From positions 7,755,986-7,819,985 of the forward strand of contig NC_049987.1 of NCBI RefSeq assembly GCF_000003815.2: a stretch of 64,000 bases of DNA. The letters are read 5' to 3'. The position numbers and the translations under genes were made by a program. Numbering within the stretch: position 1 is the stretch's first letter; the number at the start of each line of letters is the position of its first letter. Shown in pieces: positions 14,501-26,500 of the stretch. Source of the DNA: Branchiostoma floridae (taxonomy: Eukaryota > Chordata > Leptocardii > Amphioxiformes > Branchiostomatidae). Below the pieces are notes generated by a model. It had not been told where the DNA came from and did not search any database. It saw only the letters and a list, made by a program, of their open reading frames with translations.

Positions 14501-17500
14501 CTCCATCTCACACCGCACCATTGCACGTGTGGGGGTTCTTTAACGTGCATGGGGTGTGACTCTCCCCATACACGGGACCTCCATTTAACGTCTTATCCGA
14601 GGGACGGCCCTAGCCGAAGCTAGGTACTCATTTTCAGAATAGAATAGAATAGAATAGAAATAGAAAATAGAAAAAAATTGAATAGATCTGATAATGGAAT
14701 AGAATAGATAGAATTCTGTCAGCTGGCAGTAAGAGTTTATACTGTGTTATACATTTGTAAGTCTGACGAACACAGGACCCTGAGGCTAAATTTTGCAATG
14801 TGCCCCTCTGTTAACTACACAAGGGTAGCTTTGTGACAAAGATTCGCAAGTCATCAGTTGGATCTTTCTATAGTGCGAATGTTCATTAAATTTTGTAATA
14901 ACATTTTGTCTTTTTGTAGGGGATGTTCATACAGTCGTCATTCAATGGAACACACTATGTCACAGGAACTAAAGAAGGGGTAAGCCATCATGTCTTGTCA
15001 TCTCTGTTTAGTCTGTTTTGTAGTAAGACTGAGGTCTATTTCATAATGACAAGATATGTCTGTTAGAGTATGAGTTGATGAGACTCATGCTTGGGACGTT
15101 GAAAGTCATGAGGTGAATGTCAAACTTTTCTTAGCATTGAAAGTTGTGGAGTGACAGATGAACATTTCTCCATAGTCTCCATTGAGCATCTATTTAATGA
15201 CAAGATAAAGGAGCTTGAGTTGATAAGATTGGTTTTATTTGGAGGTTGGGAAAGTTGTGGAGTGACTGTTGAACATTTCTTTACATATAAACTTGGAATG
15301 ACAGATACACCTTACACCTTTCTTCACAGTCCCCAGCCTACACCTGCAAGAGAATCCACCCGGGGGATGAGATCCTACAGGTCAACTATCAGACAGTGGT
15401 GAGTCCATAGCTTCCTCGGACCCTTGATCATACAGACACATGATATCAGAACAGGGCTCTAGACAGCGTCCGTTTTTCCGTCAATTGACGGAAATTTGCT
15501 GCGTGTGACGGAAAAATTTTAAAACTAATCCGTCAACTTTGACGGACAAAAATCTGATAAAAGCTCCTTGGTGGAAGCTACAGGCTGCTTGGGGACGCCG
15601 TCCATGGTCGTAAAAGCCACACACTGTTTGTTTTGCTATTGTTATGATTGTTGACAATGTGTGTCGGTGCCCTTTTGCATACGATAATCTCATTAAAAAC
15701 CATTTTTCAAGGTCTCAGTTCAGTCTCTCTAACTCCTGAAATAGTGTTTTCGCGACAATGGGAATTGGCTGATGGAAAAAAATGTCAAGCTGGCTAGAGC
15801 CCTGTATCAGAGTGAAAGTTAAGGAATGTAATACTAGCCTGGATTCATAATTTTAATGTGTTATCACATTTTAGTGTACTTGATTATTATAGCTTAATTA
15901 CAAATGTTGAGTTATGGTTTTAATGCAGAGATTCATGTACAACAAAATAAAATTCAACCTCTGGCTACCAGACCCTTCTTTTACCAATAAACCATTTTTG
16001 TTGATAGATTGATTGAAATGGTAATGATATATAATGACAGACTGCACATTTCCAGGATATATGCATGTATGTTACTTGAAGCAGAATGTCTTAATGTATC
16101 AAGAGCTGAGCAAATCTAAAATGGCCACTGTACTGGTTACTTCTTCAGGTTGGCTGGAAACTTAAAAAACTGGTGGATGCTCTCAAGGAGGATCCCCATG
16201 GGGTAGTCATCACTTTCAAGAAGAGACCAAAAACATCAAGATCATCAGGAACCCCTTCTAGACCCTCGTCGGGCTCCTCCTCCAGGCTGTCCCAGAATTC
16301 CCGGCATTCCTCAGGCAACCATATCCGCGGCCGGTCCCTGGATTCCGCGTCGCCGGCGAACTCCGTAGGACGGGTGCCGCCCTCTCCGCTTGTGGAGCTG
16401 TACCTCCCTCCTCCTCCGCCCGAGCCATACAAACCCAGGTGGGTGGGACATCCATGGATGATGTCTACACAATCAGTTAATTACAAGCCTGTAGGGTTAG
16501 CATGCAGTGATCTGAGGAGTCTAAATCTTCAGGATCACAGGTTCAGGGTTTGAATCCCAGTCTGAAACTGTGGTAAGTATCAGTATACAAAGTGTAGTGA
16601 TAAAAACCTCTCATCCTCATCAGACGCTTTGGATCAAATTCTTTTAACGGAAAAATAGGATCTAGCAGACTGACATTTTTTACTCCACCAGACGTTACAG
16701 GTCTTAAAGAGTTATGTTTCACGTCCCGTACAAATACATCTTTATGTGCGTATTTGAATATTGCTTCAATTGCATTTCTTCAATTCCAGGCAAAACTTCT
16801 TTGACCGTGTGAGAACACCAACTTCAAACATTACCCAGTCCCAGGTTCAAGTTCACCAGCCTCTGTGGTATTTACTTAACTGTTTACTATAGGGTGGTAT
16901 TTTGCGGTGAAAGCACAACCCCAGTTTTCACCTCTCTTTGCTCTACCCCCAGCATGGAGTAGTTTTTGCAGCACACTTTCATATTTATATCACAGCTATC
17001 TTTTCATCATAGCTAATGCACGTTTTCTTGTAGGCAAATGGTGTGGTGGTGGATCCCAGTTAGTTTTAAATCATTTCCTTTTTCCCTAGCAGTTAAACAG
17101 GTTCTTTTGGTCTTTCTTACAGGCCTTCTTGTCACAGAAAGACATTGTTTCTCTCTTTTGCACCATTTTGACATTGTTTACTCATCCTTCTTGATTTGTA
17201 GTTTGTGCATGAACATACATGACTACATAAGTCTGTAGACAATTGTTTTTTTCCTGTAATGTTGCATAATGCAGACAATATTGTACCAATGTCAACTTTT
17301 AGGGAGGATGAGGACATGAGCCCCCCTCCCCCTCAGCCCTTGAGTGATAGATCCCAGAGTGTACACATTCCTACCCACAGGCAGGACCAGCAGGCTACTT
17401 GGTACATTTTGAACATGTTTTGATGCTTTCTATGAATATTGAAATGTAAAATGTGCATACTTTGAGAGTTGTGAAATACAACTTACTAACTGTATAGCCT

Positions 17501-23500: not shown

Positions 23501-26500
23501 CTCAGATGACAGTGATGCAGCTCCTGACATAGAATCATTATGTACACTCCATATCAGGTCATTTCCTCACTTCTTCAGCTCTTAAGTAGTATAGTGTAGC
23601 ATCCATTTGTTTGGGATATCATGTGATATTTGGGTGACTTATGTTTGGGAGGTAAAGATGCTAGAAGGAGAGGAATGGCCTCTTCCTCCCAACACCATGC
23701 CCTAGACATAGTAGAACAATCCATTTCCTCTACGGCCTCAAAAAAGCTTATAGGACTACCTTGAATTATCTTTTTATGTGATATTTTAAGCACCATTCAG
23801 CACTGACAAATTGTGTGTCCAAGGAGTATCCTTGGTTGCAGCATTTCTTGATGCAGCATGTTCGCGATACTGACTTCAGGTGGTCTTCCTCTTTCAGTGA
23901 GGACTCAGAAGATGAAGAGCACAAACCTTCACCTGAGCCCCCCTCCCCCCAGGGGAGCGATGTTGATTTACATGTCTATAAGTCGTCTGATGTTAAGTTT
24001 GGGTCCATGGAATTCCCTCCACTGTCCACCAGGTCTCAGAGTGTCCCAGCCATACCTGTGACACCTGTACCTGAACAACAGGGGTAAAATTCTGAACTCT
24101 TTTGCTGGGAAATTGATGAGCTTGATGTGGTTTGAGGCTGTAGCTGTTTTATAGGCATGTAACTGGAATTGGCTTAGTGGAATTTGTAGACTGAGATAAG
24201 TGCTTCTGGTGTGGAGTTTAGCATGGCATGGAACCTGATGATTTGCGTATGGCACCATCATGATTGCATTATAGGTAGTCAAACATGGCTTTTGTTTCCT
24301 TGCCATTGTCTTGATTTGTTGTTGAAGCAAGCTGCAAGCTGCAGTTGTAGTTTGGTTGTTGAGAAGTTACGCTGCAATGATTGCTTTTTGAAAGATAACA
24401 GCTACATGTATTTTATGCCAAATGCTCCACTATCTACTTTACTATTTACAATAATTACTAAAATATTTTGTGTCTTCGTCTGTTTCCTCAAGTTCATTGT
24501 GAATTGTTCTTTAATACCTGAATGCATCAAGAAGTGTGTCACCAACAAATCCCTGTGTCTTCTCACCCCAGGAGAGACAGAGGGTCATCTGAGGACGTTG
24601 ACAATCCCATCCCTTTCAGTGGCATGTCCCAGAGCGTGTCTCTGAGCGTACTTAAGCACTATTTTTCGGATGAGTTCCTCGGGTAGATACTTAAGCCAGA
24701 ATTCATTGTTGGTTGGTTGCGGTGGCTACTTTGTAGATGTAGCTATCGCAGGTGCTGTGAGCTGAGCTGGCCGTCTAGCATTGTTTCTGCATGTTCATTT
24801 GCATTCACTTTTATATCTTTCTTCTTGAACTACTCAGGTGCAGATGGAGACAATATGTTGGCTTCACAGCTGTGCATGGATTTTTCTGATCTATGCTTGT
24901 AGCTATGATGATGTTATGGTTTGCTGTGGGCTTCAATTCCTTAGAAAATGTTCATCCTTTATTTTACGACAGTCACTATGCCTTAATTTATAGAATCTGA
25001 TACAACTAGTGCTATCTGTCGAGAGCTTTTTAGAATGAAAATTACTGAGAACAGCAATTATACAACATCAGAATAACTCCTTTAACCATCTCAATATCAC
25101 TGGCCAGCTGTAGAGTTGACATTGGTCTGTGATGCTTAGAGGGATAACCTACCTACCTACCTACCTACAAGCAGATAAAAAGTTGTACAGAAATATTTTT
25201 ATATAGAGCTGCTGTACTTAAGCTGACTGCAACGCCATATTGCATGTCTCTGTCTTTTTTAGGTGAGTTTGGCAGCAGATGGGAGAGAGAGATGATCTGG
25301 GGCTTCTCTTGGCTTTTTCTAGAACTTTTGTTTGCCACTCACACACTCCCTACTATTGCCTAGGTCACATTTCCAAACCAGGGCCCGACCGGTTTCTAAG
25401 CTTTCAGGAATGAAAAGATATGATACAAAAGACAACAAACTACACAAAATGTAAGTCTTGGGCATGATTTGTGTTTTCCGGTTTTTGTACTGTAGGTATA
25501 CATTTTTTCCGTTGCCAAAAAGAGCCCAGCCGGGCCCTGGTTTGAAAATGTGACCCTGGCATATATGTGGTGTTAAAAGTGTATGGTGTGTATAATGCAG
25601 CTCACTTATGCCCTCTTGCAGCATTAGCATGTACTGCAGTTGATAGTAACCATCCCTAGACTAGGTCTTTCGAGATTACTGATGTGTTGCTTGAATTATA
25701 GGGAAGATTCTGAGGAGGAAGGAGCATCTATTGATTCCGTCTCGACTGTTGTGACCCGGTCGCCGGTTAGCCCAGCATCCCCACAGTGGTAAATCTGTGT
25801 TTTTTTGTTGTGGAAGTCTTACTGCTGTCTACCTCCCCTTTCCTTGGTGCATGTTTGTATTCTTATGCTGAGATTTTCTTCCTGTTTCAGGGCAGAGCAT
25901 GCATGAGGTTCTGTCTATATCCTTTCATCTCATAACTTTCAGCCTGCTAAGGTTATTAAGCCATTGGGCACCAAGTCTGTATTGGCTGTTAAATAATGGT
26001 TAGGTAGCAAGGATATCCTTGCATATTCATTTTCTTGAATATCAAATGAATATTTTCTGCACGTCACTCTTTTTTTCTGCTAATAGCTTTGCGATTGATG
26101 TGACACTTAGATTCTCCTGCCTGCGTGTATTAAAAAATGGTTTGTTCTATTAGAACCATATTGTTTGAACTTGTAGTTATGTCATCTTCAATAAAGGTCA
26201 AATTCTGTGATGACCTTCTATAACACTGATTTTTTAAAAGATTATCGCTTCTTTGGTTGCATACTGAAGGAAAGCACTTAAGCAAAACTTCTGAAAAATC
26301 AGCTTAATTTTCTGAAAATATATTGGACTTTCCTGCTGTCGGTTTACCGAGTGATTTACAGTTCGGAGTTAAGATGGTTTATAACTTGATTTCCCAGGGA
26401 GGAGGGAGAGGGCCTGAGCCCCACCAGACCACTACCTCTCGGCGCTCGTTCTCCAAACTACCTCCTGGATCGGCAAAGCAAGTACAGGCGGTCCGCTACG

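Follow-up and report, generated by a model that had tools for sequence, protein, structure and literature searches.

A predicted array of frame-neutral exons with weak 5' splice sites and Rbfox-type motifs lies within the CNK2_3 domain of an amphioxus CNK gene

Analysis of a 64,000-nt stretch of the Branchiostoma floridae genome (contig NC_049987.1, positions 7,755,986 to 7,819,985; hereafter the window, numbered from its first letter) revealed a plus-strand gene encoding the scaffold protein CNK, in which 14 predicted exons lie in an array between the PDZ and PH halves. Membership in CNK, proposed in an earlier note on this DNA, was confirmed by domain profiles matching SAM_2 (1.5e-14), CRIC (3.3e-18), PDZ (1.8e-8) and PH (2.7e-16) in this order, and by a match at 1e-83 between the N-terminal half and the solved CNK2 structure 9k1l; the CNK of structure 8bw8 was matched at 1.2e-40. 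The order SAM, CRIC, PDZ, CNK2_3, PH of vertebrate CNKSR2 and CNKSR3 is also found here. The genome searched comprises 431 contigs and 513,431,437 bases; its only reported CRIC match was this CNK gene, and a DNA search with positions 16149-19500 matched the window alone, detecting no additional array copies or haplotigs. The array exons, the two exons flanking them (C5 and C3) and a duplication within the array are as follows.

16149..16438, + strand: C5, upstream flanking exon; PDZ end and serine-rich stretch, phase 0 to 2, G at +5 of a strong donor
16790..16867, + strand: e1; phase 2-2, TG end, weaker coding support (p 0.09)
17303..17401, + strand: e2; phase 2-2, TG end, acidic start and RSQSV core
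17812..17904, + strand: e3; phase 2-2, TG end, nearest relative e2
18237..18326, + strand: e4; phase 2-2, TG end, RAQSF core
19348..19437, + strand: e6; phase 2-2, TG end
19779..19862, + strand: e7; phase 2-2, TG end
20322..20408, + strand: e8; phase 2-2, TG end, RSHSL core
20911..20988, + strand: e9; phase 2-2, CG end
21205..21306, + strand: e10; phase 2-2, TG end, weakest acceptor, weak coding support (p 0.08)
21724..22854, + strand: e11; phase 2-2, 1131 nt, 37-residue repeat present nine times (36 residues in one copy)
23477..23557, + strand: e13; phase 2-2, AG end, weaker coding support (p 0.07)
23898..24083, + strand: e14; phase 2-2, TRSQSVP core
24572..24682, + strand: e15; phase 2-2, MSQSV core
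25702..25788, + strand: e17; phase 2-2, TG end
26398..26693, + strand: C3, exon flanking the array downstream; phase 2 to 1, start alignable with e2
18196..19160, + strand: 515-bp tandem duplication, about 90% identical (18196-18645 and 18711-19160), including e4

All 14 exons that the earlier note had placed at 16790-25788 were located and are symmetric, each having a length divisible by 3, phase 2-2 and bounding AG and GT dinucleotides, and its count of nine TG ends (e1, e2, e3, e4, e6, e7, e8, e10, and e17) agreed with the exon check. Thirteen of the exons measure 78-186 nt and the remaining one, e11, 1131 nt; at the DNA level, the repeat in e11 was reported by a repeat finder as a 111-bp tandem repeat of 8.8 copies at 21842-22811. 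The flanks fit the phase of the array, as C5 exits and C3 enters in phase 2, while CNK exon phases elsewhere are mixed. All 120 forward junctions among the 16 exons (14 array exons and two flanking ones) are stop-free, so that the claim that exons could be skipped without loss of frame also stood, and TGG (Trp) is rebuilt at 68 of these junctions. A tryptophan-acidic motif of the kinesin light chain type might conceivably arise at such Trp junctions. An initial A, creating a stop codon when it follows TG, was found in none of the 15 entered exons (array and C3) as against five of 16 other CNK exons (p 0.043). The predicted product of e10 has a Cys-rich hydrophobic core flanked by basic stretches, unlike the remaining array exons, and e10 could be a cassette for membrane anchoring, or no true exon at all.

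Regarding coding support, the codon-usage log-likelihood in the predicted frame was positive for all array exons; compared with stop-free intron windows, p was below 0.005 for e2, e3, e4, e6, e9, e11, e14, e15, and e17, 0.02-0.05 for e7 and e8, and 0.07-0.09 for e1, e10, and e13. The remaining two frames of e9 score well too. A mechanical scan for AG..GT intervals on the array strand gave 18 non-overlapping candidates in phase 2 versus 11 in phase 0 and 15 in phase 1, with four to seven candidates on the opposite strand and eight to 14 for each combination of phase and strand in a 10-kb control (50000-60000); the phase scan alone is thus too weak to set the array apart, and codon usage is the better evidence. 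That several listed exons are prediction artefacts would accord with these similar candidate numbers in other phases, with the weak splice sites and with the marginal scores of e1, e10, and e13, but appears very improbable given the codon scores, positive in 14 of 14 and with p below 0.005 in nine, the 376-codon open frame of e11, and the differences between e2 and e3, which are mainly synonymous in the predicted frame (pS 0.65, pN 0.19) and not in the other two. One additional candidate exon at 25364-25450, with good splice sites and phase 2-2, was rejected: it had the lowest coding score and lies inside a dispersed inverted-repeat element (25357-25561, 41-nt arms), whose own AG and GT mimic an array exon and for which 857 first-look candidates in the genome yielded 39 scored places besides this one.

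The array exons had also been described as duplicates of one ancestral exon. Alignment upheld this for e2, e3, e4, and the start of C3; a shared QS[VFLM]/[QHY]S[VLMIF] core suggests it for e8, e14, e15, and e6, and for e1, e7, e9, e10, e11, e13, and e17 such kinship was not demonstrated. The 515-bp tandem duplication predicts a fifteenth exon, a copy of e4, at a position that falls within unread bases. The SQSV core occurs four times in the short exons versus 0.05 in shuffles, an excess explained by the relatedness of the exons, and a 14-3-3 motif had seven matches in the 13 short exons versus 3.3 in shuffles (p 0.04), which is a lead at most.

The array lies midway through the CNK2_3 domain (PF06663), a position newly found here. 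When C5 was joined directly to C3, a single unbroken PF06663 match was obtained, at 34.4 and 37.0 bits in two runs (cut-off 27), spanning positions 9-106 of the 212 in the profile, the second half of which was unmatched. Insertion of one exon between C5 and C3, done singly for six exons, gave 22.3 (e1), 21.4 (e2), 23.5 (e3), 25.1 (e8), 26.3 (e14), and 27.9 bits (e17), and in five of the six cases split the match into two stretches; with e1 to e9 included and C3 left out the score was 14.4. Assignment to the CNK2/3 subtype, which PF06663 defines, was supported, a single-stretch match above the cut-off being seen only with direct C5-C3 joining. The six exons tested therefore have no counterpart in the vertebrate-type CNK2_3 profile, in line with the remark in the earlier note that such a linker was not familiar from vertebrate CNKs, and since direct joining restores the domain match, skipping of the whole array would give a vertebrate-like linker. 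The proline-rich motif at residues 354-357 of CNKSR2 binds the WW domains of Vilse/ARHGAP39 (PMC8774548), and the end of C5 may be its counterpart.

The array donors differ from the other donors of the gene at position +5, where G was found in none of the 14 array donors versus 17 of the 18 CNK donors outside the array (Fisher 3e-8); one control exon had two alternative donors entered, and dropping one gives 16/17 and p 6e-8. With the exons of the SAM, CRIC, PDZ, and PH domains as controls, the comparison was 0/14 versus 11/12 (p 1.6e-6). The lone control donor without G at +5 belongs to the PH-domain exon 35571-35650. In the array, positions +4 and +6 are variable and +5 is restricted to A (eight donors) or T (six). 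Donor scores, computed with generic matrices, ranged from 2.0 to 6.5 bits (mean 4.1) and were lower than those of controls (Mann-Whitney p 1.3e-4). A constitutive repeat-bearing linker, with all array exons always included and weak donors and motifs as by-products of duplication, would suit the common phase of all exons, the reality of exon duplication, and the in-frame purifying selection, which fits regular translation; we nevertheless judge it unlikely, because G at +5 is lacking from all 14 donors although the flanking sites are strong, because +4 and +6 vary while +5 is A or T throughout, and because direct C5-C3 joining restores the CNK2_3 profile.

Regarding intronic signals, the hexamer TGCATG occurs 18 times in sense (17 of them in introns) and six times in antisense in the array interval (16439..26397, + strand). 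It is the top-ranked hexamer of the array introns, with 17 occurrences versus 2.3 expected from 20 genome loci, and in intervals downstream of array exons it was found 14 times versus 1.1 expected. By comparison, the remainder of the window has 6.3 sense and 5.4 antisense copies per 10 kb, the 20 genome loci of 10 kb have a mean of 2.9 per strand and a maximum of nine, and in PDZ genes, six genic loci gave 3.3 in sense and 4.8 in antisense; 18 copies per 10 kb correspond to P 1e-4 allowing for overdispersion and 6e-6 against the window's own rate. The letters around TGCATG are diverse among copies, so that they do not represent one dispersed repeat. Thirteen of the 14 array exons (all except e13) are followed by the shorter GCATG at a distance of 6-260 nt, versus two of 17 CNK exons outside the array (p 7e-6), and nine of the 14 by TGCATG itself over the same distance; the two control exons are SAM2 and C5, the latter directly preceding the array. 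When e10 was left out, as its interval crosses a gap, GCATG followed 12 of 13 array exons (p 1.7e-5), and among intervals drawn from non-exonic parts of the window elsewhere, 27% contained it. The genome also encodes an Rbfox-like RRM on contig C171, in three exons with 95, 70, and 82% identity, while a search for the Fox-1_C family gave no match anywhere, its controls being likewise unmatched, and has no bearing on the presence of Rbfox. Purine-rich exon starts are slightly over-represented (0.64 versus 0.56, p 0.044) and are possible SR-protein enhancers.

Together, the weak donors and Rbfox-type elements make regulated skipping of the array exons likely. From the exon anatomy, the compatible frames, the biased donors, the enriched motif, and the break in the domain profile, all of them observed, we infer skipping, Rbfox dependence, and an effect on signalling, and it seems somewhat probable that Rbfox-assisted, weak-donor cassettes inserted into the CNK2_3 domain tune the CNK linker. 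At least 14 frame-neutral cassette exons would have been inserted into one phase-2 CNK intron, partly via tandem duplication. With the array 5' splice sites crippled at +5, the strong flanking sites would join directly to give a vertebrate-like linker, unless Rbfox, attached to the (U)GCAUG that follows almost all array exons, recruited the U1 small nuclear ribonucleoprotein (snRNP) to the weak donor, perhaps assisted by SR proteins on the purine-rich exon starts. The presence of Rbfox would thus yield a long PDZ-PH linker rich in R-x-x-S sites, and its absence a short one. A more specific version of this scheme, suggested by the weakening of all donors at +5 and the GCAUG of nearly every exon, is tentative and rather doubtful: the array might act as one analogue dial, the Rbfox level setting the number of phospho-motif cassettes after the CNK proline-rich stretch so that linker length and docking capacity rise jointly in nerve or muscle, having originated from a duplicate of the 5' end of C3 that acquired a donor of its own.

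Several points count against regulation of this kind. The control donors were partly selected by splice score, which favours G at +5, and e3, e9, e10, and e17 each have an alternative in-frame-open donor with G at +5, which outscores the listed donor in e3 and e9 and keeps phase 2 solely in e10. The motifs downstream of e10 lie past a gap of uncertain size, the intervals upstream of array exons are GCATG-rich too (10/14), and GCATG shows a weak preference for the donor side, with 21 closer to the donor and 11 closer to the acceptor (p 0.11; p 0.047 in a test within the array). TGCATG is fairly common across the window, at about six per 10 kb and 14 per 10 kb near 39000-52000, its strand asymmetry is modest (17 versus 6, p 0.035), and the purine-rich start signal is marginal, failing in e1 and e7. 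Shared ancestry could moreover have copied the weak donor together with GCATG without selection.

Regarding known systems, vertebrate CNKSR2 and CNKSR3 share their domain order with amphioxus CNK, and the array exons tested have no place in their CNK2_3 profile. The variable exons of CD44 and the PEVK exons of titin likewise form long rows of frame-neutral exons in linker-like regions, in genes that are unrelated to CNK and, as far as is known, differently regulated. For CNKSR2, isoforms 1 and 3 are described as differing at the C-terminus (PMC8774548). Inclusion of GFPT1 exon 9, which has a weak 5' splice site, depends on SRSF1 and Rbfox1/2 recruiting the U1 snRNP, and both become dispensable when the site is strengthened, as set out in PMC10514471; according to the same source, GFPT1 exon 9 and EPB41 exon 16 combine a weak 5' splice site with (U)GCAUG in the downstream intron, as the array does. 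Those are single exons, whereas the amphioxus arrangement, known here from sequence alone, recurs over 13 of 14 neighbouring exons. Because the array repeats the sequence logic of GFPT1 exon 9 exon by exon, regulated and possibly joint inclusion may be expected by analogy. The weak donors and Rbfox-type elements likewise point to possible common control of the array exons in place of free combination.

The opposite possibility, free combinatorial or mutually exclusive choice with no common regulator, has precedent in other tandem exon duplications, in which adjacent exons are duplicated as in the array and which are often tied to mutually exclusive use (PMC9013439), and it agrees with frame-safe junctions in 120 of 120 cases. 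It nonetheless seems improbable, as the frame imposes no exclusivity and almost all array exons have introns dominated by a single motif; the array also differs from mutually exclusive tandem duplications in that many of its exons are not demonstrably alike. Rbfox-assisted cassettes, possibly under joint control, are the reading we prefer.

Further features were noted elsewhere in the window. Open frames resembling a long interspersed element (LINE)-type reverse transcriptase by eye lie in a CNK intron at 32795-34485. At 47756-48400, in the gene after CNK, which is putatively TADA3-like, there are seven near-identical copies of the stretch ALEARIREELINQG with CA repeats between them; this looks like one exon of that gene repeated in tandem. 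If its tentative borders are right, the repeated exon measures about 41 nt, a length that is not a multiple of 3.

In the paper library searched, no paper combined amphioxus or Branchiostoma with CNK terms, and the domain interruption, the absence of G at +5 from the array donors, and the enrichment of TGCATG are newly reported here. If the proposed mechanism is true, a single CNK gene would have up to 2^14 frame-safe linkers under one splicing factor, providing a natural scaffold-length series for testing the tuning of Ras/MAPK and Rac signalling by the linker, and the gene would illustrate how, in one lineage, an exon array can open a conserved domain whose ancestral form is still available through skipping.
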